IMG/VR virus record: IMGVR_UViG_3300021961_000351
Span: 1-32,733 of that record
Source: a virus
DNA length: 32,733 nt
Strand: one strand, 5' to 3'
The position numbers were made by a program, and so were the translations under genes. Shown piece by piece: positions 6,299 through 26,142 of the stretch (position 1 is its first letter; each line of letters opens with the position of its first letter). A model generated the notes under the pieces. It made no database searches. It was not told where the DNA came from and worked only from the letters and a program-made list of their open reading frames with translations.

Positions 6299-6562
6299 TT
6301 AGGACTGACCACCGACGACAGTACCGTCTGAGTCAGCTGTAGGTACAGCGTTGTGCCTCTTGAGCGTACCATCTGACTCGAAAAACAAGTACCAGGTCTC
6401 TCCTGTAGGCGCCTGCAAAGATATGTAAGCGGGTGTGTTGCTTCCAGCTCCACACTTAAGATCAATGTGTCCTGCCTCAGCTGAGCCTGAAACTGCTACT
6501 TCAAAACCGTTACCAGTTATCTGGTGCAAACCTTTTGTGTCTGTTACTAATACTTTTGGCAT
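6299..6562 (-). CDS. Small, probably abundant virion protein, unknown function
   Basis: 87 aa, predicted beta-rich: MPKVLVTDTKGLHQITGNG, a Gly/Ala/Ser-rich middle (VAVSGSAEAGHIDLKCGAG), WYLFFESDGTLKRHN and a Gly-rich tail ending VVGGQS. I do not recognise a named family. The ATG at 6562 has AGGAG at 8 bases; an upstream in-frame TTG at 6595 lacks such a site. The gene is a complete transcription unit, with a T4-type late promoter and leader hairpin upstream and a terminator downstream. Its sequence is visibly richer in G+C than most neighbours, like the capsid gene. This suggests strong late expression, consistent with a head decoration or tail tube-like protein (inference). Confidence 0.65.
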   Translation of the reverse strand: MPKVLVTDTKGLHQITGNGFEVAVSGSAEAGHIDLKCGAGSNTPAYISLQAPTGETWYLFFESDGTLKRHNAVPTADSDGTVVGGQS

Positions 6563-6599
6563 AATTTTCTCCTTTTTGAGTTTACTTGTTCGCAAGATT

Positions 6600-6638
6600 C
6601 TAACACGCCGGCGAGGTCGACTTTATGCAATGTGTTAG
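6600..6638 (-). promoter_or_regulatory. Possible 5'-terminal mRNA stem-loop in the leader of the 87-aa gene
   Basis: On the minus strand CTAACAC (6638-6632) pairs perfectly with GTGTTAG (6606-6600) across a 25-base loop. With the late promoter at 6642-6649, transcription would begin near 6635-6637, so the stem would lie almost at the 5' end of the mRNA. 5'-terminal stems are known to protect bacterial mRNAs from RNase E/RppH-dependent decay. The stem is short and the loop long, so this is tentative. Confidence 0.38.
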
Positions 6639-6641
6639 GCC

Positions 6642-6649
6642 TATTTATA
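6642..6649 (-). promoter_or_regulatory. T4-type late promoter (TATAAATA)
   Basis: The minus strand has an exact TATAAATA, the T4 late promoter element recognised by gp55-type sigma with sliding clamp. It lies directly after the stop of the 81-aa gene and 79 bases upstream of the 87-aa gene's ATG. No -35 is needed for this class. It is the only exact copy I found upstream of a gene here. Confidence 0.7.
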
Positions 6650-8026: not shown

Positions 8027-9439
8027 TTAAAAATTCTTAATAAAAATGTTACTACCACAGCCATAAATCTTAAATAATTTATTTTCCAAAACTTTCTGTT
8101 TTTCTGTTTTTCCGTTTGATGATTTAAATTTAAATCTATCAAATCTCAATTGTCCATTTGTATACCAATAATCAGGTCCTGTTTCTCCCATAAGATTAAA
8201 TCCTGACTTGAGATATCCATTTCCATCACCGAATCTCAAATCTGCATAAGTAAGAATACCTTTAAATCCGTTGTCTTTTGCCCAAAATTCAACTTTTTTA
8301 AGAAGTTTTGTTAAACCACCAACAACGTTGGTATTGCGTGCAGAAGCGAATCTTGAAATCTCAATTAAAGATTTGTATTTTTTTTGTCTAGGCTTTCTAA
8401 CAGATAGACAAAGAACTAGCTCATTATTATAATAAAGACCCCATCTGGATAATGAAGCAGAGTATCCTGAAATATGATTAGATTCAAAAAATATTTTTGC
8501 TTCTCTGACATTTACTTCTTGAATATTACATTTTCTTGCAAAAATCTTTTTATCAATTAGATTTAATCGATTTTTAATCATTGATTTACAAATTTCTTTT
8601 TTGCTAATCCATTCATCACCAAAAATATGAATTAAATTAATTCCCAAAGTCTGAGCAGTTCTTTTTTTATTTAAGTAATAATATCGACTTTTTGATTCTC
8701 CATTTAAAATGGCGTGATAGTATAGCCCGTTATGTTCTATTCCAAATTTTTTCTCTGGTGCGAAAACATCTATTTCTTTTGGATGAAGAATAGATCGATT
8801 ATTAAATTCTACTTCTTGTCCTAAAGATTGAATATATTCGCCTATTTCTTTTTCCGCTTGAGAAGTTCCAACGGGATGACAAACCACACACAAAGATCCA
8901 CGCTCATAAGCTTGCAATGTTTTTTTAAAGATTGTATTACATTGTTTGCATTTAAATTCAAGATATTGTTTTTGTCGAGAAAAATAATCATCATATTCTG
9001 TAATTAGTTCAAAATCTTTAGATCTAGATTTAATTCTTAAATCAAAGTCTTCGAAAGAAACAATTTTTGAAAATCTCATTTTATCTAAAGACACATCAGA
9101 ATGATGCTTTCCAAAAAATGGATTTCTTTCTCCTTTCATGCTCTCTGACTGCCTGAGAAGTCTTTTATCTGTTTTTTTTGTTTTTCCTTTATTCCAGGCA
9201 GGAGCACTTCCTCCTTCTTTTCCTGCTATTGATGATCCTTTTTTAGAGCAAGCTTTGCAAAATCTTTTAAAACTAAATGCAACATATCTTGTTTCACCAT
9301 TACAAACTTCACATTTTGGTTGATTGCCACCTAAAAGATAATCAATCGTGTATTGTTTTGAAGATATTTTATGAAAAGATTGAAGATGATTAGAAAATTT
9401 CTTTCCTTCACCTTGAAAATTGCAAATTTGGCATATCAT
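8027..9439 (-). CDS. Homing endonuclease, Vsr-like/EDxHD type with zinc fingers
   Basis: 470 aa, modular. N-terminus: a C2H2-like finger (CQIC...H...FH), a CxxC pair with second CxxC (KCEVC, CKAC), a NUMOD3-like NPFFGKHHSD, and another CxxC/CxxC pair (CKQC, CVVC). Then a PD-(D/E)xK-like nuclease core: E-I-D-V (222-225), IEHNGLYYHA and GINLIHIFGDEW, which I match to the Vsr-like EDxHD homing endonucleases. C-terminal half (about 290-470): GNAT-like, with NHISGYS, GLYY, GGLTKLL, TYADLRFGDGNGY. It would cut a homing site and spread itself. It lies just after the major capsid gene terminator. A TTG at 9460 is also in frame; ATG 9439 is preferred. Confidence 0.8.
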   Translation of the reverse strand: MICQICNFQGEGKKFSNHLQSFHKISSKQYTIDYLLGGNQPKCEVCNGETRYVAFSFKRFCKACSKKGSSIAGKEGGSAPAWNKGKTKKTDKRLLRQSESMKGERNPFFGKHHSDVSLDKMRFSKIVSFEDFDLRIKSRSKDFELITEYDDYFSRQKQYLEFKCKQCNTIFKKTLQAYERGSLCVVCHPVGTSQAEKEIGEYIQSLGQEVEFNNRSILHPKEIDVFAPEKKFGIEHNGLYYHAILNGESKSRYYYLNKKRTAQTLGINLIHIFGDEWISKKEICKSMIKNRLNLIDKKIFARKCNIQEVNVREAKIFFESNHISGYSASLSRWGLYYNNELVLCLSVRKPRQKKYKSLIEISRFASARNTNVVGGLTKLLKKVEFWAKDNGFKGILTYADLRFGDGNGYLKSGFNLMGETGPDYWYTNGQLRFDRFKFKSSNGKTEKQKVLENKLFKIYGCGSNIFIKNF

Positions 9440-9445
9440 TATGTC

Positions 9446-9462
9446 ATTATACCCTTGCAAGG
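9446..9462 (-). promoter_or_regulatory. Possible homing endonuclease promoter with adjacent palindrome
   Basis: Minus-strand TATAAT (9451-9446) ends 6 bases before the ATG at 9439, so transcription might begin at or near the start codon. Directly upstream is the perfect palindrome CCTTGCAAGG (9462-9453), which would lie in the promoter spacer and could be an operator. The -35 (TTTATA at 18 bases) is weak. Confidence 0.35.
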
Positions 9463-9526: not shown

Positions 9527-11443
9527 TTAGATAATGTCCATGTCCATGCAGGTGACGGTACCGTAGAAGTCAGCGCGAACCATCTTCTTGCCATAACGAG
9601 TCATGACGCCCTTGCGAGGAGTGAAATCCTCGGGTGCGAAGATAGTCGGGGTGACGATGAGGGGTACGTAAGGAGCGTAGACGTAACCAGTCTCGAGGTA
9701 GGAACCTCCCTTGTAACCAACAAGAATCTTGTTGCGAGGGAAGTAGGGGTCCTTGTAGACTGTGAAACGGTTGCTCAAGCTACCGATTGCAGCAGCACCG
9801 AGTGTGAACTCGCCACCGGTCTGGCCCTGGCCGTCAATCTTGATGGAGGGCTTGTAGAGGACAGAAGCCTCGAAGATGGTAGCAACTTCGGGTGAGCAAA
9901 CGAGGAAGTTTGCGGAACCACGAAGAGTCTTACGGTGGATCTCGTTAGCAACATCGATGATGGTTTCAACGAGAGTCTCGTACCACTCACGAACGGTACC
10001 AGTGAACTGAGGACCAGTTGCGAGAGTTGAAGCGAGCTGAACAGATGCACCAGTTCTCTTGTTGACGAACTTACCGGGGCTACGGCTCCAGTAGAAGTTA
10101 GCGCCACGAGCTTCGGTGAGAAGGTCGTTAAGGATCTCACGATCGATCTCGAGAGCGATCTGCTCGGAGAGGATCTGGGTAAGCTCAACCTCAGCGTCCA
10201 TGCTGTGGTAAGCGTTGAGATCCTGAGCGAGTTCTGGTGACCAACGAGCGCGGAGCTTGCGTGTGGTCGCTGTAACCGCGATGGACTCAATCTTAATGTC
10301 AATCTCAGGAATGACAGGTGAAGGTGAAGTCTGGAAGTTAGACTCAAACGCCGGAATGGTAAGTGTACCACCTGTGGCTCCTGCCGCCTTGACCTGATCT
10401 GAAACAACGAAAGAAGCAGTCAAGTCGAGTGTTGAGCTCGCACCGGCAAGGGCAGTTGCCTGACCTTGGCATACCATGAGAACTGCAGTTGAAGCTAAAG
10501 ATACATCAGCAAGTGGATCTGGTGTGAATGTAACAGCACCGACAGCACCTGCCATTGTTCCGAGCTGGTTAAGGCGTCTAACGTTTAGAACGCCCTGGCC
10601 GCCTTGAACGCTGGAAGCAGGAGCAGTTAGATCTGTTCTGCCTGCTGTAAATAGAGCAACTGACTTAACAGATGTTGGATCCATTCTGCGTTGACCGCCC
10701 CCAGCCTCCTGAAGTAGTGAAGCTGAAACGAGAAGTAGCTGATAAGTCTGAGAGCCATCTTCAATTAACTGTGTGACCTGTGGGTCAAACTGGAGAAGCT
10801 TACCATCCGAACCGCTTACAGTAACGGCGTCGCCTGGGCCCCATGACTGAGCTGCGTCGCCGCCAAAGGCACCGTTAATAACGTTTCCGGCGAGGCCTAG
10901 CTTGACATTCTTGTGAATCTGTGTGTAGGAAGTACCAACTAGATCGTACTGACCGCCGACTGCATCGGAACCGGTACGAACAGAAGCGCCTACCGGGTTG
11001 TTGTAGAGTGACTGACCTTTTTCGTAAGTGGAAGCAGTTGGAGCATCTGTGGCACCATCAGCTGGTGTGTCACCACCGACGTCTGAACCGTAGGTGTAAT
11101 CTAGGTAGAAGAGCAGACCGGAAGGAAGGCTCATGGGCTGAATGCTGACGAGTTCGTTAGCAACGAGGCCACCGAAGACGCGACGAACGATTGGGAAAGC
11201 GATGTTTGAGAAACCATCGACCTGAAGGCTATCTGCACCGCCTGAACCAAGAACGTTAGCCTCACGAAGAACCTGGGCAGCCTGGTTCTCGAGTAGGCGG
11301 GACATGGTCTCACGGTTGTGATCGCCGAGACCGCGAAGTAGACCGGTGCGGGACCACTTCTCCATCAATCTGTTGCTTTCAGCACCAACGTGACGATCAC
11401 GAATGCCTTCAGTCAACTGGTTTAAAGTAAAAGAACGTGACAT
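9527..11443 (-). CDS. gp23: Major capsid protein gp23
   Basis: HK97-fold subunit of the icosahedral head. Residues 1-61 form a propeptide (helical, with RLLENQAAQVLRE) that the gp21 protease should remove after L59-R60-E61. The body has FPIVRRVFGGLVANELVSIQPM and SGLLFYLDYTYGSD, and in the second half RKLRARWSPELAQDLNAYH, QIALEIDREILNDL, and the C-terminal YAPYVPLIVTPTIF, DFTPRKGVMTRYGKKMVRAD typical of T4-like capsids. At 638 aa it exceeds T4 gp23 (521), with an expanded Gly/Ala/Ser-rich region at about 120-375. AAGGAG precedes the ATG. Its G+C content is visibly higher than that of most neighbours, fitting high expression. A strong terminator follows. Confidence 0.96.
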   Translation of the reverse strand: MSRSFTLNQLTEGIRDRHVGAESNRLMEKWSRTGLLRGLGDHNRETMSRLLENQAAQVLREANVLGSGGADSLQVDGFSNIAFPIVRRVFGGLVANELVSIQPMSLPSGLLFYLDYTYGSDVGGDTPADGATDAPTASTYEKGQSLYNNPVGASVRTGSDAVGGQYDLVGTSYTQIHKNVKLGLAGNVINGAFGGDAAQSWGPGDAVTVSGSDGKLLQFDPQVTQLIEDGSQTYQLLLVSASLLQEAGGGQRRMDPTSVKSVALFTAGRTDLTAPASSVQGGQGVLNVRRLNQLGTMAGAVGAVTFTPDPLADVSLASTAVLMVCQGQATALAGASSTLDLTASFVVSDQVKAAGATGGTLTIPAFESNFQTSPSPVIPEIDIKIESIAVTATTRKLRARWSPELAQDLNAYHSMDAEVELTQILSEQIALEIDREILNDLLTEARGANFYWSRSPGKFVNKRTGASVQLASTLATGPQFTGTVREWYETLVETIIDVANEIHRKTLRGSANFLVCSPEVATIFEASVLYKPSIKIDGQGQTGGEFTLGAAAIGSLSNRFTVYKDPYFPRNKILVGYKGGSYLETGYVYAPYVPLIVTPTIFAPEDFTPRKGVMTRYGKKMVRADFYGTVTCMDMDII

Positions 11444-11491: not shown

Positions 11492-12505
11492 TTAGTTCTT
11501 CAATCCTGCCAATCTTTGCCAGCGATCAAGCTCAGGTGCATTACCCTGCTTGGGAGCTGATGAAGTAGTAGGTCTTGAAGAAGACCCACGGTTACGAGAC
11601 TCGGTTAGAGGCTTGGCATTACCGCGAGCGAATGTCTCTGTTAGGGACTTGTACAATGACTTAGCTTCTCTTAAGCTGTTAGCTTCATCAAGAGCCTTAA
11701 TGACGGACTTCTTTTCGGCCTCGTTAAGATTCTTATTCTGAAGAAGCTTGTTAACGTAGAGCAACTTCGCATTGAAAAGGTTGAGATCTTCCAACTGTTC
11801 ACGAAGAGTATTAACAGCACTTCTGTATTTACCCAGTTTCTCAGAAAGCGCACGAGTCTTGCGGCGCTCAGCGCGGAATGCTTCCGCGAGTTTGTTCATT
11901 GCAGGCGGGTTGGTAAAGACATCTTGACCTTCACTTCCACCTCCAAAAGCTTTTTTGACACCGGCTTTGCCGCTGCCTGTTCCACCGAAGGCACCCTTAA
12001 CACCGGCTTTGGCGCCGCCCGATCCACCAAAGTGGTGATCCATCTTGCCTTCGCGTACTAGTTTGCGAATTCTTAAAATTTCTTCGGCGAGCATGGCTTC
12101 GTCAACTTCGACTTCTTCCATTTCATCAAGCTGTGCTGCAAAAGGATCTTCGCCTTCTTCACCTTCTTCACCTTCTTCGCCTTCTTCGCCTTCTTCGGCT
12201 TCTTCGGCTTCTTCGGCTTCTTCGGCTTCTTCTTCCATTTCTAGGTCTTCATCGCCTTCTTCGTCGTCAAGCTCGAGCATGCCGCGAAGTTCTTCCGGAA
12301 TTTGATCTTCTTCAACGTCTTCGCCAAGATCCAGGACGAGCTTAAGCTCTTGAAGCATCTCTTCTAGAGAAGCTTTATCTTCAACTTCTTCGCCCTCTGC
12401 GTATGCACCTTCTTCCACGTCATCTTCATGCATGACTTCGGCTAGCTCTGACTCGACAGCTTCACGCAAAGCTTTGAGATCGACTTCATAGTACTTTTCG
12501 CTCAT
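11492..12505 (-). CDS. gp22: Probable main scaffold product from an internal in-frame start
   Basis: Within the long scaffold frame, ATG at 12505 (residue 151 of the long form, MSEKYYEVDLKALREAVE) is preceded by AAGGAG at 9 bases (12520-12515) and by AATAAATA (12545-12538), one mismatch from the T4 late promoter. Base composition also changes at this point: upstream codons are AT-rich, downstream ones match the capsid gene. A separate 337-aa scaffold translated from here is therefore likely, about the size of a complete gp22-type protein (T4 gp22, 269 aa). The two products would share the whole C-terminus. Confidence 0.6.
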   Translation of the reverse strand: MSEKYYEVDLKALREAVESELAEVMHEDDVEEGAYAEGEEVEDKASLEEMLQELKLVLDLGEDVEEDQIPEELRGMLELDDEEGDEDLEMEEEAEEAEEAEEAEEGEEGEEGEEGEEGEDPFAAQLDEMEEVEVDEAMLAEEILRIRKLVREGKMDHHFGGSGGAKAGVKGAFGGTGSGKAGVKKAFGGGSEGQDVFTNPPAMNKLAEAFRAERRKTRALSEKLGKYRSAVNTLREQLEDLNLFNAKLLYVNKLLQNKNLNEAEKKSVIKALDEANSLREAKSLYKSLTETFARGNAKPLTESRNRGSSSRPTTSSAPKQGNAPELDRWQRLAGLKN

Positions 12506-12955
12506 TTTTGAATTCTCCTTTAAATTCGTATCTTTATTATTTATTCTACTGCCAGATAAAGTTCTTTTTGTTTGATTAATTTTATCAGCAATTGCGTTTA
12601 ATTCTGATTTTTGAGAATCAGTTAAGCTATTATAGGCTTGTCTAGTAGCTTCAGAAACTATTTTTGTTCCACCAGAAGAAATTTCTTCTGTGATATTGAT
12701 TCCTAAAAGTGTGGATAGTTTTCTAAGCGCACTTTCATCAAGTGTAACTTCATCTAAGCTATCATTTTCTTCTTGTAAATCTTCACTTTCTTCCATGTCG
12801 TCATCATCATGACGGGTTTCTAAAAGTTCAGACTCAATAAACTCTCTAATTTTAGGTGTGACTGCTTCTAAAACAGCTTTTTTAGCATTCGCTTCAGCTA
12901 CTTCTCTTAATTTTTTAGCATCAGCTATTGCTTCCTCAAAAATCTTGTTTGACAT
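11492..12955 (-). CDS. gp22: Prohead scaffold gp22-like, long in-frame form (N-terminal extension)
   Basis: 487-aa reading frame just upstream of the capsid gene, where T4 has scaffold gp22. Residues 1-150 are a separate helical module (SNKIFEEAIADAKKLREVA, then IREFIESELLETRHDDDD). Met151 begins a second module with its own ribosome binding site. Then come an acidic EEA/EEG repeat tract (about 241-269), two linker repeats ending AGVKGAFGG and AGVKKAFGG, and a C-terminal coiled-coil scaffold core with NAKLLYVNKLLQNKNLNEAE. ATG at 12955 has AGAGG. The first module is AT-rich, the second GC-richer. Whether the long form is made, or mostly the short one, is open. The scaffold would be degraded by gp21 during maturation. 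Confidence 0.8.
   Translation of the reverse strand: MSNKIFEEAIADAKKLREVAEANAKKAVLEAVTPKIREFIESELLETRHDDDDMEESEDLQEENDSLDEVTLDESALRKLSTLLGINITEEISSGGTKIVSEATRQAYNSLTDSQKSELNAIADKINQTKRTLSGSRINNKDTNLKENSKMSEKYYEVDLKALREAVESELAEVMHEDDVEEGAYAEGEEVEDKASLEEMLQELKLVLDLGEDVEEDQIPEELRGMLELDDEEGDEDLEMEEEAEEAEEAEEAEEGEEGEEGEEGEEGEDPFAAQLDEMEEVEVDEAMLAEEILRIRKLVREGKMDHHFGGSGGAKAGVKGAFGGTGSGKAGVKKAFGGGSEGQDVFTNPPAMNKLAEAFRAERRKTRALSEKLGKYRSAVNTLREQLEDLNLFNAKLLYVNKLLQNKNLNEAEKKSVIKALDEANSLREAKSLYKSLTETFARGNAKPLTESRNRGSSSRPTTSSAPKQGNAPELDRWQRLAGLKN
12150..12236 (-). repeat. 9-base tandem repeat encoding EEA/EEG units in the scaffold
   Basis: On the plus strand, about nine units of the type CTTCTTCGG/CTTCTTCAC follow each other, coding on the minus strand for four EEA and then five EEG tripeptides. 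Unit length is a multiple of three, so slippage would change protein length without breaking the frame. The antisense frames here are long only because of this repeat. Confidence 0.85.
12538..12545 (-). promoter_or_regulatory. T4-type late promoter candidate inside the scaffold frame
   Basis: AATAAATA on the minus strand differs from TATAAATA at one base and lies 32 bases before the internal ATG at 12505, with an AAGGAG ribosome site in between. In the long frame these bases encode the R-I-N-N linker around residue 137-140. Confidence 0.5.
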
Positions 12956-13008
12956 ATTAACCTCTTAAACAAAAATAACTATATTTCAAAAAGTAAACTT
13001 ACCCTTAA

Positions 13009-14498: not shown

Positions 14499-15011
14499 TT
14501 ATCTATTTATTTTTGGAGCAAAAGCTAAATCAGCCCACTTGCCTGCTGATCCTCCGAACAATTCTACAGGATCACTTTCTGCTACAATTCTTGCTGCTTG
14601 ATCTGCTGGGCGAGCAGGAGCTTGTGTTGCATTGTTACCTTCTCTTTGCTCTTGTAGCGTTGAAGCAGCTGTATCAGCAAAGATTTCACTCATAATAGGG
14701 TCTTTAGTCACTTTTGATATTAAGCTTGAAGTCTTTTCATTAAAAGCCGGACTAGGTTCTTGTTGCCCTCCGCCAAAGCTTACTTTGTCCAAATAACTTC
14801 CAGGAGATTGATGTCTTTTTTGAACATTTCTTTGCTGAACTTCGTTCATTTTACCTAGACCTAATCCTCGAAGAGATCTTTTCTGAATGCTTTCTTTCAA
14901 GTCAGCTTTCTTTTCTTTAAGTTCACCTTCATGTGGATAAAGACCTTCTGCTAAAATTTCTACTAAGCACTCTTTAACAATAGACTTAAATACTTTTTTA
15001 TCAAGTTTCAT
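14499..15011 (-). CDS. Putative internal head/core protein with LxE cleavage-like N-terminus
   Basis: 170 aa. N-terminus is an amphipathic helix KLDKKVFKSIVKECLVEILAEG, ending in L20-A21-E22-G, which fits the (I/L)-x-E site cut by T4-type gp21 and resembles the T4 capsid targeting sequence. The rest is polar, with SLRGLGLGKMNEVQQRNVQKR, a Gly/Gln/Pro loop and a helical C-terminus ending KWADLAFAP. The ATG at 15011 overlaps the protease gene by 11 bases with a GGGAT site; longer in-frame openings to 15158 run inside the protease gene and are not used. It is the first gene after the protease. Confidence 0.6.
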   Translation of the reverse strand: MKLDKKVFKSIVKECLVEILAEGLYPHEGELKEKKADLKESIQKRSLRGLGLGKMNEVQQRNVQKRHQSPGSYLDKVSFGGGQQEPSPAFNEKTSSLISKVTKDPIMSEIFADTAASTLQEQREGNNATQAPARPADQAARIVAESDPVELFGGSAGKWADLAFAPKINR

Positions 15012-16683
15012 TTTTATCCCATCCCAGTATGCTGTTAAAAATTCTATCAATTCTGTCTGATCTGTTAAAGAAATTATTAAGCTCTCTAGGTTTAATTGTT
15101 TTTCCTTCGTGAAGAGACATAAAAGCACCAGGAGTAGAGGGTTCAGAAACCATATCAAAACAAATTAATTGAAAATCGTCTTGAACAACCTGTGTATTAC
15201 CTTTTGACACGGTGGAACCTACGCCTCTTGAGCTAATTCCTAGAGTTACACCACTTTCAATAAGACTTTGAATAATTTTTCCGCTAGGTGTATCTAGAAC
15301 TTCAATTGTCCCATAAACATCATCGCCTCGCATATAAGCTTCTCTAACAATATGTGAGGCATTTTTAAGCTCGACAACAGAAGTATCTGGATGATCGCAA
15401 TTTCCTGTCCAGAATTGTTTTCCTTTTCTCTTAGCCATCCAGTTGCCGCTAGGAGTCGTTACGCAATACACAAAATCGTCGTGATCTACTTCATCAACTT
15501 TCATAAATCTTAGATCTAAACCAATATTTTTAGAAAAATTTTCAGATACTAGCCACATAGGCTTAGAGTTTTCTTGAAGAATCATTCTCCCGGGTTCAAT
15601 TTCTCTATCTTTTTGCAAGTAAGATCTTATGTTGCTGCCAGAACCTAATTTAAGAAATACTTCTCCGACATCTTGTGCAAGTGATGTAGAGGTGGTGTAG
15701 TATTCTTTTACTAATTTTCCTCTAACAACTCTATTTCTTCCATCTCCTATAAGAAGCCATGTCAATAGTATTTCTAAACAATTTTGATCCCATTGCAAAA
15801 TATCACTTGGAATGCTTTTTTCTGAGCTCGAACCTAATTCATATAGATAATCATGAAGTCCTTTGTGAGAGCAAGAAAAATCAACTGTTTCTCCATCTGA
15901 TCTTAATCTTTCCTTCCATTCTAAAGGAAATTCTTTAAGAAGCTCGCGTATTAAATCAATGTTTTCTTTTTTCTTTTGAGTTATTTGAATGTTATTAGAA
16001 GTTGAATATCCTCTTTTAACTCCATCGGAACACCCTTCAGAAATATAAATTCCTATAAATGCTGCCCACACTTGAGGGTCAACAAAAATATTTGTTCCTG
16101 GAATATTATAAACTTCAGGTGTTTCTCCTTTCCAATCAGATTTAAAACTTAAACCACAGTGAGAAAGCCAACTAGACTCTTCTTTGTAGAGATCATAAAC
16201 AGATTGAGCTGTCATGTAGACAGGATTGTTGTTTCTATCAAAAATAAGGGTCTTATGATCAGGTGTAAGTTTCATATCTAAAGTTTTTCCATTATAAAAA
16301 TGGAGCATCTTTCCTTTGTAATGCTTTTTAGTAATATGAAGTATTTCTTCTTCTTGAAGTGTACCTGTTTCTACGTTAAGTGTAAAAACTTTATCGTCTT
16401 TTTCTAGCTCATTAAAAGATAACCATCCTCTTTTTGTCATTATCTGTGTCTCTTGATCAACACACTCACCCAATGCTCTATTTTCTCTAATTAACTTTTG
16501 ATAATTTTCAACTTCTCTTTCTAAAATTGATTTAGGATAAACTCTTCCATTCTGATTTAGTGTATTTGCACGCTGAATTATTCCTTGTAGTATAATTTTT
16601 CCAAATTTTTCTTTATTTTCTTTGATGACAGCTTTATTGCAGGTAATAGGAAGCCATTCAGTTAAAACTTTTAATTCAGACAT
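15001..16683 (-). CDS. gp21: Prohead protease gp21, interrupted by an intein
   Basis: Serine protease that matures the prohead by cutting scaffold and capsid proteins. The 560-aa precursor is an extein of 205 aa (T4 gp21, 212 aa) split by a 355-aa intein. N-extein 1-73: IILQGIIQRANTLNQNGRVYP and ENRALGE. C-extein 429-560: C-DHP (His431, the catalytic His of the conserved GE-x-DHP), LKNASHIVREAY, GTIEVLDTPSGK, and LGISSRGVGS with catalytic Ser (484/485). Intein +1 Cys replaces the usual Leu of GELDHP. Splicing is needed to build the active site. The ATG overlaps the preceding gene by 8 bases. Confidence 0.93.
   Translation of the reverse strand: MSELKVLTEWLPITCNKAVIKENKEKFGKIILQGIIQRANTLNQNGRVYPKSILEREVENYQKLIRENRALGECVDQETQIMTKRGWLSFNELEKDDKVFTLNVETGTLQEEEILHITKKHYKGKMLHFYNGKTLDMKLTPDHKTLIFDRNNNPVYMTAQSVYDLYKEESSWLSHCGLSFKSDWKGETPEVYNIPGTNIFVDPQVWAAFIGIYISEGCSDGVKRGYSTSNNIQITQKKKENIDLIRELLKEFPLEWKERLRSDGETVDFSCSHKGLHDYLYELGSSSEKSIPSDILQWDQNCLEILLTWLLIGDGRNRVVRGKLVKEYYTTSTSLAQDVGEVFLKLGSGSNIRSYLQKDREIEPGRMILQENSKPMWLVSENFSKNIGLDLRFMKVDEVDHDDFVYCVTTPSGNWMAKRKGKQFWTGNCDHPDTSVVELKNASHIVREAYMRGDDVYGTIEVLDTPSGKIIQSLIESGVTLGISSRGVGSTVSKGNTQVVQDDFQLICFDMVSEPSTPGAFMSLHEGKTIKPRELNNFFNRSDRIDRIFNSILGWDKNET
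15400..16464 (-). mobile_element. Intein with LAGLIDADG homing endonuclease in gp21
   Basis: Codons 74-428 (355 aa) of the protease precursor. Block A: Cys1 with CVDQETQIMTKRGWLSF. Block B: T-x-x-H (Thr140, His143 in precursor numbering). Dodecapeptides of the endonuclease: AAFIGIYISEG (acidic Glu216) and LLTWLLIGDG (acidic Asp314), both acidic residues kept, so cutting is likely active. C-terminal blocks: DDFVYCVTTPSGNW and FWTGN, then Cys+1. The penultimate residue is Gly rather than the usual His. It self-splices and would home into intein-free gp21 alleles at the conserved active-site codons. Confidence 0.95.
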
Positions 16684-17542
16684 TTATTTCCTCCTTTTTA
16701 GAAAGCTCACCAATCAGCTTGGTAACAGTTAAAAATTTAACAATTGAAATGTCGTCAATTTTATTTTCATCCAAAGTATTGATAGCACTTCTAACTCTAT
16801 CAACTTTTTCTATTAAAATCCTGTTTGTTTCTAAATCTTCAAAATCTTCTAAAAGAGTCAAGGCATTTGCTTTCTTTTCTAAGAGATAGTCTTTAAGTTT
16901 ATCAGTATTTTCTTGTGATGAATAAAAAGCATAGTGTGAAATGATATCTCTTTCTTCTTTTGTTAGATGCGCATATTTTTGATTAATTTTTTCTGTCATA
17001 ATCTTAAGAACAAGCTTATCTGATTGTGAAGCGTCAAGTTCATTTTTCATTTTTTCAATGTTTTGACTAGGCTTTTCAGAAAGAAGATTTTCTCCGACTT
17101 TCTTTTCAAATTCAATAAGTATTCCCAAATCAGGAGAGTCTTTGCGCCATTCATTAAGTGCAATTTGAATTGCACCTAAGTTTCTATAGTTTGGAACAGA
17201 TTGATAGAAAAAATCTTGCTTTTCAAGAATGTAGTTAATATCTCTTATCAATCTAGACTTTTCTTTATTTAGCTTTTCACTGTTGATATTTCTTGCTGCT
17301 CTTTTTGCTTCTGCGAGTATTGATGCAACAACATGTGTATCATTCACAGTTGAATTAGCAAGTGCTTTAAATAATCTAAACTCCTTATAAAGTTCAGTAT
17401 TTTTAGCAAATCTTTTTTCTATAATTTGCGTAGCTTTCTTAGCAGATCTTCTATCCCCTTCAATAATCGAATTGGTAATGTATTGAATTAGTAGCTCATA
17501 GATAATACCGACATTTCTCTTTTTATTATGTTTGGCTGTCAT
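16676..17542 (-). CDS. Hypothetical helical protein between portal and protease
   Basis: 288 aa, mostly alpha-helical and charged. N-terminal region KRNVGIIYELLIQYITNSI then GDRRSAKKATQIIEKRF and ELYKEFRLFKALAN is the best-defined part; the C-terminal half has charged helices with LTKEERDIISHYAFYS. No catalytic motif, no membrane segment. Its ATG overlaps the portal stop (ATGA), and its end overlaps the protease start by 8 bases. T4 has the small core proteins gp67/gp68 at this place; a head assembly role is inferred from context only. Confidence 0.6.
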   Translation of the reverse strand: MTAKHNKKRNVGIIYELLIQYITNSIIEGDRRSAKKATQIIEKRFAKNTELYKEFRLFKALANSTVNDTHVVASILAEAKRAARNINSEKLNKEKSRLIRDINYILEKQDFFYQSVPNYRNLGAIQIALNEWRKDSPDLGILIEFEKKVGENLLSEKPSQNIEKMKNELDASQSDKLVLKIMTEKINQKYAHLTKEERDIISHYAFYSSQENTDKLKDYLLEKKANALTLLEDFEDLETNRILIEKVDRVRSAINTLDENKIDDISIVKFLTVTKLIGELSKKEEINV

Positions 17543-19491
17543 TTTTCTCCCTCTGATGAATTGTTCTCAGAGATAACTCCTGTAAAAGTTTTAGGCGTCC
17601 CTATTTTTTTCTCAAGTCTAGAAAGAGTACTTTTAATTCTATCAGTCATGTAAGCATTTTGAACAATTTTATTGTCCAAATATTCACTAATATCTATATC
17701 TTCATTTGTTAAACTACCTAATTGTTTTAGGTCACTCATTTCTCTCCTCATTCCTGAGGGATCAAAATTTTGAGCTTTGTCGCCTGCATCTGACGGTTTG
17801 ATTTTATGATGCTTATCAGCCATCACTGAAGCACGCCTCTTTTTTCTTCTTCTTTCTTCGTACTCATGACGAATCTTTTCTCTTTTTTCATCATCTGTTA
17901 AAAAATCTTCAGCATCTTCAGAGAGCATTGTTGCAACTTTTTCTAAAGAATTTTGTATTCTAATTGGAACGTTTTCATCTTCTATAGAATCATTTTCAGA
18001 AAGATCTGTTGGGCCTCCTAAGTCTATGGACTGTGATAATTCTGGCGGCTGCCCGAGATCCATTGGGTCAGATGGACCTTCTGCTGATGTAATTTGTGAA
18101 GACTCAATTTCAAGCTCAAGTATTTTATCTTTCTTTTGTCCTTTTCGAATTGTTTCTATTTCATCTTCTGTAAGTCTAATTATATTTTTCTGAACCCAGG
18201 TTTTGTCTACAAGTCCAGGAGTTTGAAGTGCTGTACTCGCTGCTTCAAATCTTGATCTAAAAAGCTCAAGCTTTTGTTGCTGAGCAATTGTAGATGGATT
18301 TGAAAGCTTAAGTTTAAAATCTAATAAGTCATTATCAGAAAATCCATGACAATAGAGGTGAATAATTGCTATCTTATTGAGTTCTGATAAGACAGTTCTT
18401 TGAACTCTTGCAATTGTTCTAGAAAACCTAATATCTTCTTGTGATAATGTAGCTTTTGCTCCAAGACCTTCATCATATCCTAAGTATGCTTTGGGAATCT
18501 TGAGAGCTGCAAAAAGCTTTTTCTGAATATATTCTACATCATTAGTTTCACCTGCAACTGTTCCTCCTGCAAGTGTAGTAATGTCTGTGCCCGATTCACT
18601 GCCTCGCACAGGTATAAAATAATCTTCATCAACTGAAAGTGGATTATATCTTAGATCAACTCTTCCTGAGCTTTGATCTGTGATAGAAGCACGCTTAAGT
18701 GTTGATTGTGCTCTTTCCATATATGCAGGAATTTCTTCAGGAGGTACATTACCTACGTCAATTTTAAAAACGCGGCGCTCTGGAGCACGAACAATTCTGT
18801 AAACTAACATTGCATCTTCTAAAAGAATTAGCTGACGCCATATTCTACGAGCAGGTTCCAAAACAGAAGATCCATATGGCACAAAAGCATCGTTTCCTAG
18901 AAGCCTCATATGAGAAACTTGCCAGTTTTCTAAAACTTGATTGCCTTGTGTAACCCATCTAAATCTAACAGCAAGCGGGTCATTAGGATCGAAGCCTTCT
19001 TCTCTTTCAACTTCAGAAATGGGCATCGGATAGGCATTAATAATACCGTATTCCGGGCTGACGTCGTTAAAGAGAAAATGATCTCCGTATTTGCAAAGAT
19101 TTCTAACCCAACTTGTTAAATTAAAATCTACGTTAAGTGTATCAAAAAACAAGTCATCAAGTAGTTGCTTGATTTTAGTATTGTCTGAATGAATATGAAG
19201 AACATTTCCGTTTTCGTCAGCTGCTACAGATTCTTCTGCATAAATGTCTAATGCACTACCAATCTCAGGTGTGTATTCCATTTCGCTAAAGTCTGAGTAT
19301 CTTGCCATTCTATCATAAGCTCCGTATGCAGACATTGCATTGCTGTATACTTTACTTTGATTTTTTCTAAAAATTTCAAATGCAGAAGACGTGTATTTGT
19401 CGTCAGGTTTTATAAGCTTACGCTTAACGACGGGCCCAGACCTAAAAAGTCTAGTAAGCCTTCTGAATAGATTTGAATTACTTTCTGCCAT
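17539..19491 (-). CDS. gp20: Portal protein gp20
   Basis: Forms the dodecameric DNA entry ring at one head vertex, nucleates the prohead and docks terminase, later the neck. 650 aa (T4 gp20, 524). Features: YSDFSEMEYTPEIGSALDIY (about 66-85), WVRNLCKYGDHFLFNDV, WQVSHMRLLGND, PYGSSVLEPARRIWRQLILLEDAMLVYRI (about 215-243), RAPERRVFKIDVGN, KLFAALKIPKAYLGYDE and QEDIRFSRTIARVQRTV, all typical of T4-like portals. The C-terminal 160 residues are acidic and basic low-complexity sequence with KREKIRHEYEERRRKKRR, an extension relative to T4. It starts 11 bases after the terminase stop. Confidence 0.95.
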   Translation of the reverse strand: MAESNSNLFRRLTRLFRSGPVVKRKLIKPDDKYTSSAFEIFRKNQSKVYSNAMSAYGAYDRMARYSDFSEMEYTPEIGSALDIYAEESVAADENGNVLHIHSDNTKIKQLLDDLFFDTLNVDFNLTSWVRNLCKYGDHFLFNDVSPEYGIINAYPMPISEVEREEGFDPNDPLAVRFRWVTQGNQVLENWQVSHMRLLGNDAFVPYGSSVLEPARRIWRQLILLEDAMLVYRIVRAPERRVFKIDVGNVPPEEIPAYMERAQSTLKRASITDQSSGRVDLRYNPLSVDEDYFIPVRGSESGTDITTLAGGTVAGETNDVEYIQKKLFAALKIPKAYLGYDEGLGAKATLSQEDIRFSRTIARVQRTVLSELNKIAIIHLYCHGFSDNDLLDFKLKLSNPSTIAQQQKLELFRSRFEAASTALQTPGLVDKTWVQKNIIRLTEDEIETIRKGQKKDKILELEIESSQITSAEGPSDPMDLGQPPELSQSIDLGGPTDLSENDSIEDENVPIRIQNSLEKVATMLSEDAEDFLTDDEKREKIRHEYEERRRKKRRASVMADKHHKIKPSDAGDKAQNFDPSGMRREMSDLKQLGSLTNEDIDISEYLDNKIVQNAYMTDRIKSTLSRLEKKIGTPKTFTGVISENNSSEGEK

Positions 19492-19502
19492 TAATTAATT
19501 CC

Positions 19503-21122
19503 TTATTTGATAACCCACATATAGTCATGTAATATATTACTGCGATTTCTGGTATTATTTAAATCTTGCTTGATATTATTACTAACACCTTTTGCATTAG
19601 GGCTTGACATATAGACACCTTGAGGAGCTAATGCTTGATCAGGCGTATCATTGTAAGATCTTTGTTTTTTGGACATTGCCGCAAGCATAGCTTCATTAAG
19701 CCCTGTGTTAGATTTTGAATATTCGGAAGCACCATCAAACAACCATGACCCAATTGCAAGGCTCATAACCAAATCATCGTTAAACCCAGCTCTTGCTTGA
19801 GCTCTACCTGTATTCCAAGTAAAAACTTTTAATTCTTCGTAAAATCTAGAAGAGTAAGAGACTAATTGTCTATTTCTAAGTAGTTCTTCAAGCTTAGCAA
19901 GAACTGTGCTTCTTGTTTTGCCATTTGTATTAAATCCTGCTGTGTCAGCAGATGAAGGAGGGACATAATCTCCAATATAGACTTGATTTTTCTTTCTGTA
20001 ATAAAGCTTAGGATATTTTAAATCTTGAAGCTTTAAGATTGTAGCATAACCATAAGAATTATTTTCAGGACAGACTAGCGATTTGTTATATTTTAGACCA
20101 AACTCATTAATAAGTTCTGCAAAATTATCTGGACGAATTTTACCCTTATACTCTGCAACAATTTCGGATGTATCTGAGTCTATGATGTGAAATGTGGAAT
20201 AGTCTTTTGAGTCTCCTCGAGAAACATCTGCAGAAAGAATGTAGTTGTTTGCACTAAGTGGGTATTTCCAAATCCAAACATTTCTGTCAAACCCTTGTCT
20301 TTCTACGGGAGGTTTTACTTGTAGCCTCATCCATTCAAGTGTATTAATGTCTAAAAACGTTTCGCCAGATATTGCAAAGTCGCACAGATATTCTTGTGCG
20401 ATCTGACGCTTATTCATGTTTTTTGTAGTTTTTTCAAACCACTCATTATCACGCTCGGGATGGACTGTCCAAGGAAGATTGATAGCATTGAATTCGTTTA
20501 GACCAGCTTCAGCATCTACATAAAGCTTATGGTACTGGCCACCGACACCGTTTGGCGTAGATAAAATAATAACCCTACCACCCGTAGAGATAGTAGGGTA
20601 AATACCCGTCCAGATTGTATCAAAGTTTCTAACAAATGCAGCCTCGTCTACAATCAGCAAAGACAAAGCTTCAGATCTACCAGCGTCTTCGGAAGTAGGT
20701 ATCGCTTGTATTTGTGAACCGTGACTAAATCTTATTTTCTGCTTGTTGTTTTCTACAATATCAGCTAAGATCATCCACTTTGGAAGTGATCTTATCATTG
20801 TTTTTACTTTTGTAATAAAGTTTTGAGCAACCGTAAGTTTAGTAGCAATAATTAGAATATTCTTTTCTTTCTGAAATATTGCCATCCAGACAGCATATGC
20901 TGCAACAAGTGTAGATAAACCCAATTGTCTAGACTTGAGTACAATATTAAACCTATGTTCAAGAAAGTCTTCTACACACTCATCTTGAAATTCATAGGTT
21001 TCAAAAGGAATAAGACCCCGCACTGGGTGCTGGATCTTTAAATAATTTTTAAAGAAATAATTTGGATCTTTTCCGCATTTAATTATTTCTTTAACTTGTA
21101 GCTGCTTATTGTACTTCGTCAT
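19503..21122 (-). CDS. gp17: Large terminase subunit gp17
   Basis: Packaging motor: ATPase plus headful nuclease docked on the portal. 539 aa. ATPase: KSRQLGLST (63-71) as Walker A, with the Lys at the front of the loop and Leu where T4 has Lys; LLIVDE (155-160) Walker B; STP (188-190) coupling motif. Nuclease, RNase H-like: Asp299 in LSADVSRGD, Glu353 in CPENNSYG and Asp449/Asp450 in FNDDLVMSLA. The C-terminal tail (about 465-539) is polar. Length is shorter than T4 gp17 (610). No gp16 homologue was recognised. ATG at 21122, followed closely by the portal gene. Confidence 0.96.
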   Translation of the reverse strand: MTKYNKQLQVKEIIKCGKDPNYFFKNYLKIQHPVRGLIPFETYEFQDECVEDFLEHRFNIVLKSRQLGLSTLVAAYAVWMAIFQKEKNILIIATKLTVAQNFITKVKTMIRSLPKWMILADIVENNKQKIRFSHGSQIQAIPTSEDAGRSEALSLLIVDEAAFVRNFDTIWTGIYPTISTGGRVIILSTPNGVGGQYHKLYVDAEAGLNEFNAINLPWTVHPERDNEWFEKTTKNMNKRQIAQEYLCDFAISGETFLDINTLEWMRLQVKPPVERQGFDRNVWIWKYPLSANNYILSADVSRGDSKDYSTFHIIDSDTSEIVAEYKGKIRPDNFAELINEFGLKYNKSLVCPENNSYGYATILKLQDLKYPKLYYRKKNQVYIGDYVPPSSADTAGFNTNGKTRSTVLAKLEELLRNRQLVSYSSRFYEELKVFTWNTGRAQARAGFNDDLVMSLAIGSWLFDGASEYSKSNTGLNEAMLAAMSKKQRSYNDTPDQALAPQGVYMSSPNAKGVSNNIKQDLNNTRNRSNILHDYMWVIK

Positions 21123-24800: not shown

Positions 24801-24916
24801 ATGACATCTGGTTTAATTTTTTTTGCTTGACGAAAAAGATCTTTAAACGCAAGAACATATTCTTGGTGTCTAGAAAGACCTCGCCAGTGCACATCTGCAA
24901 TATGTAATATTTTCAT
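21785..24916 (-). CDS. gp46/47: Fused SbcD-SbcC (gp47-gp46) recombination nuclease
   Basis: Single 1043-aa chain joining both subunits of the Mre11-Rad50-like DNA end-processing nuclease. Residues 1-220: metallophosphoesterase with DVHW (Asp8, His10), GGDIVH (Asp44), GNHD (80-82), His150 and GDIH (182-185). Linker 220-360 includes the Rad50-binding region. Rad50 part: GKNARGKSS Walker A (399-407), Q-loop Gln517, coiled coil about 555-880 with a hook C717-x6-C724 instead of CxxC, signature ELASGMEK (951-958), Walker B LIIDE (981-985) and His1017. Both active sites look intact. In T4 these are two genes. The start forms a TAATG junction with the upstream gene. Confidence 0.95.
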   Translation of the reverse strand: MKILHIADVHWRGLSRHQEYVLAFKDLFRQAKKIKPDVIYVGGDIVHSKTQGISPELVENLVWWFNEMAKIAPTHIILGNHDGLIHNKDRQDAISPIINAIDNKNIFLYKDSGVYPTGIPGFDWCVFSCFDEENWKSVKPTKNISIALFHGAVTGSLTDIDWSLDGEVPVSFFDAFDFGLLGDIHKRQFLNKEKTVAYCGSTIQQNYGEDGEKGFLVWDIKSRNDFDVEFYPVKNNYQFVTVDWKGSVEKTVKACSEYSRLSRFRISAVNDYITSAQTKSLQKALKKTKNASEVVFKIDNSFSAERIKESESDALNLRDIKVMKDLMRQYYAGSNISEDEWNELDKITSSYLSEVTQTNTDLRNVKWGINRVAFDNMFCYGENNEINLDKLPGITGIFGKNARGKSSIIGTIAYGLFNSSDRGSIKNIHIINSRKNFCKTEIDISVNGSLFRIIRETKKKNTKNNIWAPTDLKVYQIDGDGNITSDKTEEQRRESEKILRSMIGTSEEFHMTSLASQGEMNIFIKEKATSRKNILSNFLDMSVFDNMNENAKKDTSDLRTELKQFSAESSWSKKINDLTAAMSKNQSMLNKVNEEKESLEIEIEKLTKEVLKNTDSDFVTFTEVEDAEASVVLLKKKINDEQEKLDGCKDLIYDTETKIKKIQDFIDAFDIDAVKEKNNESKKLVKTLWELKGLLKAENAELTAMEKSVKRLLEVPCGDSFPTCKFIKDSHRDKSKIEEKRIKVNGLETNLSDLTDSYKKIKKENYEEKIEKYNSIIQKKSELVTKISNNRVEIQSIQNKIENLKKEYETKKRRSEDLKRRFDGQDPESDVSGVSKLLSIKKKDLKINDENRIDKIRDIEGLRLAIENAEKSKKKFNELNTQLKVQDLFIQATSKRGIPVQIINLLLPKINKEISKILKGVVGFTVVLEADLESNAMDVFIDYGDSKRIIELASGMEKMISSLAIRVALINISSLPKSSMLIIDEGFGSLDETNLEACGRLLHSLKKSFKNILVISHIDQIKDIVDNTIDIMKLGVNSHVQSI

Positions 24917-26142
24917 TAAATACCCGTACTCATGCTAATAACGTAGTCTCTTTTATCAGGTTCAAACTGTAATTTTCCGCTAGGACATATTACCCAGCAT
25001 CTCTTAGTTGTACAAGTTTTTGGCTTTGCAGCATATCCGTCTGTCATAACAATACAACCGTCAAAGTTTTTACTAATTTTTCTAAAGTGATCCTCAACTG
25101 CATTAAAACAAGTACCTCCGCTAAGACCTCTTCCAAAGGTTGCTCTTTTACCTTTTTTCCACGTGGTTTTACTTTCTTCATCAACTTGACTATCAAAGTA
25201 ATAATATACAAAAGTATGAGTCTTAGATAGCTGTTCTAGAATTTTACCAAAACGATCGAGAGAATCAGGTCCAACAGATCCGCTCTGATCTATATAGACT
25301 GCCAGCATAGATGTCTTTTCAGTTTTTCTACCTGCATGAATGTAAGGATACTTCCTATTAATTTTCCGCTGGGTTTTAAAATAGTTGTTTCTAAGCTTGC
25401 TTCCGCAAAAATACTTAAGTGCTCTTTCCCATTTAAACTCTACTGTCGTTAGCTTTTCCACTTCAGCCCTGACAGACATTGATACAGAGCCCCAGCTTCT
25501 ACTGTTTCCTACTTCTTTTGCTTTTTCAAGAATTTCTTTTACTTTCTGATCAGCAATAATTTTATCTGTTTCGGAAAGCTCGCTATTATCATGTTCGTCC
25601 AGAACTATTATAACATCTTGCAATCCGTCAATTGTCTCTTGAATGCTTTTGTTTTCAAGAATTTTTTCCATATACCATTCAGAAGACATATAAGCTGGAA
25701 GACTTGCAATCCAGTCATTCATTTTTTCTATCATTGCACGGCGGTCTGGATCGATTTCAATTCCTTCTTTTACTTTTAATTTATTTTTGACACCGGGAAT
25801 AAGACCACATTCTGGAAGCTGAGCTCTAGGAATAATGCTGTTAATTGCAAGATCGGTTGCAATGTTCCAATAATTGTGAGGCTCACGCTTTCTTGTCGTT
25901 ACATGCTTAAAAATAAGATGATAACACTCGTGTTTGAGAAGACCAAAAATCTTTTCACGCGAAAGAGAAGATACAAATTCAGGTGACCAATAAAGAGTCA
26001 TAGTGCCATCTTTGTATGTAACACCCGCTGTGCCTATTTTTGGATCACAAATTTTACGCATTCCACGAATAATTGTAGCAAAAAAAGGTTCATCAATCAA
26101 AAACTTAACTAGAATACTGTCAAACTGCTTTTCAGTAATCAT
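24916..26142 (-). CDS. VWA-like / putative metallopeptidase partner of MoxR ATPase
   Basis: 408 aa. N-terminal domain has an HExxH zinc site (H71-ECY-H75) followed by NIATDLAIN (Asp97 a possible third ligand), as in DUF2201-type metallopeptidases. C-terminal VWA-like domain holds a MIDAS: D285-x-S287-x-S289 (YIDQSGSVG), GGT at 342-344 and TDG at 367-369. Such proteins pair with MoxR-type AAA+ ATPases to remodel or insert metals into target proteins. The upstream MoxR gene ends at its ATG (TAATG), and it ends in the same way at SbcDC. The target in phage infection is unknown. Confidence 0.83.
   Translation of the reverse strand: MITEKQFDSILVKFLIDEPFFATIIRGMRKICDPKIGTAGVTYKDGTMTLYWSPEFVSSLSREKIFGLLKHECYHLIFKHVTTRKREPHNYWNIATDLAINSIIPRAQLPECGLIPGVKNKLKVKEGIEIDPDRRAMIEKMNDWIASLPAYMSSEWYMEKILENKSIQETIDGLQDVIIVLDEHDNSELSETDKIIADQKVKEILEKAKEVGNSRSWGSVSMSVRAEVEKLTTVEFKWERALKYFCGSKLRNNYFKTQRKINRKYPYIHAGRKTEKTSMLAVYIDQSGSVGPDSLDRFGKILEQLSKTHTFVYYYFDSQVDEESKTTWKKGKRATFGRGLSGGTCFNAVEDHFRKISKNFDGCIVMTDGYAAKPKTCTTKRCWVICPSGKLQFEPDKRDYVISMSTGI

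Follow-up and report, generated by a model that had tools for sequence, protein, structure and literature searches.

Head genes and the long scaffold-position frame

The window, by which we mean the whole 32.7-kb virus-record fragment that was analysed, carries its head genes on the minus strand in the order of T4 (Table 1). A single frame of 487 codons occupies the position of gene 22, with gp23 as its immediate downstream neighbour and the prohead protease gene upstream. By sequence profile its product matched no PHROG family and no known gp22 family. The C-terminus showed weak similarity to proteins of Flavobacterium phage immuto and Microcystis phage Mel-JY01, which are encoded just before the capsid gene. 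In position, and in being acidic and helical, the 487-residue protein corresponds to the T4 scaffold gp22.

Table 1. Features of the window discussed in the text.
Feature	Position	Strand	Remarks
Terminase	19503-21122	minus	PHROG match
Portal	17539-19491	minus	PHROG match
Prohead protease	15001-16683	minus	PHROG match
Four smaller frames	between prohead protease and 487-aa frame	minus	
GAGG, ribosome site of the long form	12961-12964	minus	SD energy about -6.4, compared with -8.7 at the internal site
Long scaffold-position frame, 487 aa	11492-12955	minus	gene-22 position, in the interval from protease to capsid
Module 1, codons 1-150	12506-12955	minus	AT-rich, long form only; first 46 residues a strongly conserved helix
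Linker RINNKDTNLKENSK	12506-12547	minus	also bears the promoter-like box and the ribosome site
AATAAATA, box of T4/cyanophage late promoter type	12538-12545	minus	ATAAATA begins at -39 relative to the internal ATG
AAGGAG, putative internal ribosome-binding site	12515-12520	minus	9 nt between GGAG and ATG
Internal ATG, putative short-form start	12503-12505	minus	invariant in the 19 closest relatives; with SD in wider relatives
Module 2, the putative short scaffold form, 337 aa	11492-12505	minus	acidic middle, conserved C-terminal coiled region
Major capsid protein	9527-11443	minus	PHROG 138, E 1.2e-74

Several further observations concern the surroundings of this frame. The capsid gene has about 53% GC amid surroundings of 28-40%. 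The close relatives L001-L005 likewise have a capsid GC3 of 0.44-0.55, which does not extend to relatives further away. Two frames resembling HNH/homing endonucleases lie on the minus strand at 8027-9460 (PHROG 3339/559) and 24916-26142 (PHROG 1314); the former lies immediately after the capsid gene and is much richer in AT than that gene. The scaffold-position protein of Flavobacterium phage immuto_2-6A (2592-3833) is annotated as 'DNA polymerase phi-like' but is probably the scaffold; a tandem repeat of about 60 residues (GFEQWLDSVSAQMDKFGKNNPTIQAIEKAV...) occurs within it.

An internal start codon with a conserved ribosome site

The earlier note had pointed to an ATG at 12505 inside the 487-residue frame, preceded by AAGGAG and by AATAAATA at the junction of two modules. 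All three elements are present as described and all are translated, within SRINNKDTNLKENSK-M, and the frame contains an in-frame, coterminal internal start with a translation signal of its own. Five scans of viral contigs yielded more than 200 loci for comparison. With an HMM pipeline, both ends of the protein were found in one frame at 217 loci, corresponding to 145 distinct proteins, five of which are outgroup scaffolds. Among the 19 closest relatives the whole frame aligns with an invariant internal Met, and the linker preceding it varies by whole codons in length and sequence.

Alignment of all 115 divergent proteins failed near the junction for about half of them, and the homology-defined test therefore comprises 62 rows, in which the internal ATG was set by the alignment and not by its ribosome site; junction sites outside these rows were picked by an SD-guided choice. 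Among these sequences, which are related by descent, so that p-values for SD and box statistics alike overstate independence and are not to be taken literally, GGAG or AGGA precedes 60 of the 62 aligned internal ATGs, compared with 51 of 789 (6.5%) other in-frame ATGs of the same genes. The median SD pairing is -8.6 kcal/mol at the internal ATG, -6.0 at annotated first starts and -1.7 at other in-frame ATGs. The ATG always follows the SD-like element by 5-12 nt, mostly by 9. This contrast is large and seen in deeply divergent clades.

The constraint lies at the level of nucleotides. Wherever the junction reads K-E or Q-E, Glu is encoded by GAG (46/46) and the preceding Lys or Gln by a codon ending in G (AAG or CAG; 46/46), whereas in module 1 GAG makes up 31% of Glu codons and G-ending codons 35% of those for Lys and Gln; AAG/CAG GAG is thus fixed despite an AT-rich background. 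GGAG falls in either of two codon phases (85 and 19 sites) under different peptides (KEN, QEN, RGE, SGD), which means that the same ribosome site encodes different peptides in different clades. The residues after the internal Met also vary by group (YYEVDL, SRRR, KKNLKSLTEAE and others), and the ribosome site precedes them in nearly all. Freshwater members have a weaker SD (GTGGAGC, about -5.6) and competing SD-like sites in their acidic repeats. When all internal ATGs were allowed to compete, only 22 of 115 genes exceeded 90% of synonymous draws. A best-site synonymous test spanning the entire middle region was weak, since acidic Glu/Gly repeats themselves make SD-like sequence.

A late-promoter-like box within the coding sequence

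Late promoters of T4 have the sequence TATAAATA, with A at the first position as a known variant, and those of cyanophages NATAAATA (PMC2988020, PMC2984593). The sequence of the box in the window and its spacing from the start codon fit a T4-type late promoter of either form, which would lie about 10 bp before a start of transcription. The stretch from -450 to +600 around the internal ATG, taken over 113 relatives, contains 24 copies of ATAAATA, of which 16 lie at -39, two each at -36 and -33, and four elsewhere. The linker carries the box in 20 of the 113, the window among them, against 4.9 expected from synonymous codon draws, and Ile at this place is encoded by ATA in 28 of 30 cases, compared with 24% in module 1. 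The same ATAAATA stands before gene 22 at -35 in T4 and at -44 in Synechococcus phage Syn19.

A perfect box is absent from 93 of the 113 relatives. The late box is not enriched over the window as a whole, nor before the other genes of the relatives' loci (13 forward and 16 reverse occurrences in 349 upstream regions). An internal promoter is likely in the clade of the window, and it is less certain than the ribosome site.

Two observations concern late-type boxes elsewhere. One clade (L008, L012, L014, L021, L023 and L047) has no box at the scaffold junction; its ATAAATA instead precedes the capsid gene by 31-41 nt, as though the promoter had shifted one gene downstream. The only perfect TATAAATA of the window is intergenic (6562-6649, minus strand), 86 nt before an ATG with an SD (6562), and the leader in between contains the inverted repeat CTAACAC ... 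GTGTTAG.

Two modules with different composition

Comparison of the window with its five nearest relatives gave a dN of 0.02-0.06 for residues 1-46 of module 1, where dS is high to saturated. Synonymous difference was 0-0.37 in the linker, against 0.46-0.74 in modules 1 and 2. Both modules are under purifying selection, which is strong on module 1. The dN/dS of module 1 and the frame kept open through the AT-rich linker point to translation across the junction. Helices are predicted at residues 3-31 and 34-49 and disorder for the linker (residues 136-157); the structure model of the 487-residue protein is of low confidence (mean pLDDT 59.8, pTM 0.24).

A shift in composition at the junction, as claimed previously, does hold for the window and most near relatives and is clear in only part of the family. 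In the window GC3 rises from 0.16 in codons 1-150 to 0.41 in the remaining codons, and the capsid gene has 0.51; after adjustment for amino acids the jump is +0.24 (p ~0.001). The adjusted jump is also significant in most near relatives, and small or absent in other clades. In the clade of the window, module 2 comes close to the capsid gene in codon bias, which might hint at a higher expression of module 2 alongside the capsid, although this is not a general property.

The similar stretches that had been claimed for the two modules (IREFIESELLETRHDDDD and LREAVESELAEVMHEDD) found no support in profile comparison with hhalign, which gave a probability of 0.7%. With no detectable homology between modules 1 and 2, a duplication as their source was rejected. 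Weak HMM matches of each terminus in the opposite module reflected whole-sequence E-values and were set aside. Within the acidic middle of the scaffold, positions 12145-12240 consist of near-perfect GAAGAAGGC / GAAGAAGCC codon repeats, and the length of the acidic stretch varies strongly among relatives.

Fused and separated relatives

More than 110 distinct divergent relatives keep the frame open across the junction. Among relatives with both ends, it is continuous except in four unfused contigs and two doubtful ones, L225 with a stop codon after the internal ATG and L231 with a frame break elsewhere, which may reflect errors or decay and were left out. In the four unfused contigs (L172, L173, L177 and L236), module 2 is a separate, adjacent gene with an SD in front of it. 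The stop codon that the earlier note had proposed to look for between the modules was found in L177, L173 and L172, just before the ribosome site. In L177, which reads AAA TAA GGAGAAATT ATG AGT, nothing separates the stop codon from the ribosome site. Its close relative L173 comes from a different metagenome and reads AAA TAA GGAGAAAATT ATG, in another frame. L172 has TAA TTAC GGAGG AAACT GTG, with the stop 4 nt before the SD, and in L236 module 2 begins within the end of module 1.

On capsid trees the unfused contigs fall in two places, nested within fused relatives; outside these, scaffold genes are single and continuous. Backbone support is limited, with a single origin of the separation recovered in 6% of bootstrap trees, and the outgroups have long branches. 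Most simply, the gene has long been continuous with an internal start and was later split about twice, so that the separation appears derived. Deeper still, the upstream reading frame might have been joined to a gene-22-like gene, a possibility left by the box that T4 and Syn19 have before gene 22.

Other variants were observed among the relatives. The scaffold of L023 (4715-6133) lacks the second half of module 1 and keeps the frame, the internal SD and the ATG. L225 (IMGVR_UViG_3300013006_002344) has an in-frame TAG a few codons past the internal ATG, where the near-identical L237 is intact with Glu; the TAG could be a sequencing error, decay or a site of stop readthrough.

Alternative explanations

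The internal start might be used by translation alone, in which case AATAAATA would be no more than the way an AT-rich gene encodes a conserved I-N-N, and one mRNA would serve both forms. The rarity of the perfect box among relatives, its lack of enrichment before other genes and the near-universal SD are all in keeping with this model, but the box is fixed at three in-phase positions with almost no others within 1 kb, its Ile codon is nearly always ATA, and both motif and distance match those before gene 22 in T4 and Syn19. We consider translation alone unlikely as the full account, while giving it some weight. Far less weight falls on the idea that the SD-like sequence is there for ribosome pausing during folding of the N-terminal module, or for coupling to downstream genes, instead of initiation. 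SD-like hexamers within genes have been proposed to slow ribosomes, and the junction is a predicted disordered linker; nevertheless, the ATG invariably lies within initiation distance, and the same element starts a separate gene in the unfused relatives, which makes a role in pausing or coupling highly implausible.

The junction could also be read as protein and not as a start site. The cleavage consensus of the T4 protease gp21 is (L/I)-x-E, and the K/Q-E junction might be a site at which the prohead protease, whose gene is nearby, later cuts a single protein. An [LI]xE motif is indeed present in the seven residues before the internal Met at 56 of 113 sites, compared with 17% of seven-mers in module 1. 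Half of the sites, however, lack the motif (RGE, SGD, NQE, NEG), the AAG/CAG GAG codon choice is fixed, and a cleavage site would need no ATG; TTAAAGGAG and ATTAAGGAG lengthen the pairing with the 16S tail and encode L/I-K-E incidentally. Cleavage of a single protein is thus a very improbable explanation of the junction, and cleavage in addition to initiation is possible. The suggestion in the earlier note that a separating stop codon was recently lost after duplication, leaving the internal signals as relics, has in its favour the separate-gene relatives with TAA directly before the SD (L177, L173) or 4 nt before it (L172). It conflicts with the joined frame in more than 110 divergent relatives, the scattered and nested separation on capsid trees, the nucleotide-level constraint on the signals and the missing homology of the modules, and we regard a recent accidental fusion as scarcely tenable; an ancient, non-duplicative fusion is possible.

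Comparison with known scaffold genes

Herpesvirus UL26/UL26.5 encodes two in-frame, 3'-coterminal scaffold products, of which the short one is abundant and has its promoter inside the long gene (PMC2949831). The window resembles it in having a coterminal, in-frame internal start; the late-promoter box would be the counterpart of the internal promoter, and the predicted short form that of the abundant product. The two arrangements differ in that the part restricted to the long form is here a helical module instead of a protease, and they belong to different virus groups. Phage lambda makes the short scaffold Nu3 from an in-frame internal start within the head gene C. The long lambda protein is a protease, whereas the protease is encoded by a separate gene in the window. 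A C-Nu3-portal initiator complex has been described for lambda (PMC3224144).

T4 shares with the window the order of protease, scaffold and capsid and has ATAAATA 35 nt before gene 22. An internal translation start is annotated in T4 gene 21, and neither T4 gp22 (269 aa) nor Syn19 gp22 (341 aa) has an in-frame ATG with a strong SD. The box stands before gene 22 in T4 and Syn19, whereas in the family of the window it lies within the coding sequence. By description, the family resembles the Far-T4 phages, which are uncultivated T4-like phages of marine and fresh waters and have a divergent gp23 (Roux et al. 2015, PMC4360716); the main text of that paper makes no mention of gp22, scaffold or internal starts.

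Proposed mechanism and implications

We consider it very probable that the scaffold gene consists of two coterminal, in-frame nested genes encoding a long and a short scaffold. At the sequence level there is strong support for the earlier suggestion that one locus yields both forms by way of an internal promoter and ribosome site (SD at 60/62, box in register in 20/113). Nested in-frame scaffold genes were already known, and the T4-like case is well supported at that same level; our search of the literature, mainly open-access, found no report of a nested arrangement in T4-like scaffolds.

Transcripts from upstream head genes would be translated from ATG 12955 by means of GAGG into the 487-residue long scaffold. 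A second transcript might arise from the late-type promoter AATAAATA within the coding sequence, with a start expected near 12530, and AAGGAG with ATG 12505 would direct synthesis of the 337-residue short scaffold on either transcript. The short form would be made together with the major capsid protein by the expected co-transcription. The T4 prohead core contains about 580 copies of gp22 (PMC9958956). Short scaffold and capsid protein are both needed in hundreds of copies, and we expect the core to be made mostly of the short form, with the long form as a minor component. The conserved helical N-terminal module of the long form could give a small share of the core subunits an added function, and we might guess that it serves to anchor or place the core, the portal and the protease being possible sites. 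A part in head-size control, raised in the earlier note, would be a further possibility. Module 1 would act in trans in the separated relatives. We infer the production of both proteins, their ratio, the start of transcription and the role of module 1 from these signals.

Taken as a whole, we lean towards the view that a T4-like lineage builds its head core from two coterminal isoforms of one gene, with a late promoter and a ribosome site under dual coding constraint, that this arrangement arose independently of UL26/UL26.5, and that it has been split into two genes at least twice. Genome annotation lists one scaffold protein where two probably exist. The positioning of the T4 core and the localisation of its components have been described as unresolved (PMC9958956), and the natural fused and separated versions allow a test of the role of the extra N-terminal module and of the need for tethering. 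If true, the arrangement would be a phage counterpart to the nested herpesvirus scaffold with its internal promoter.
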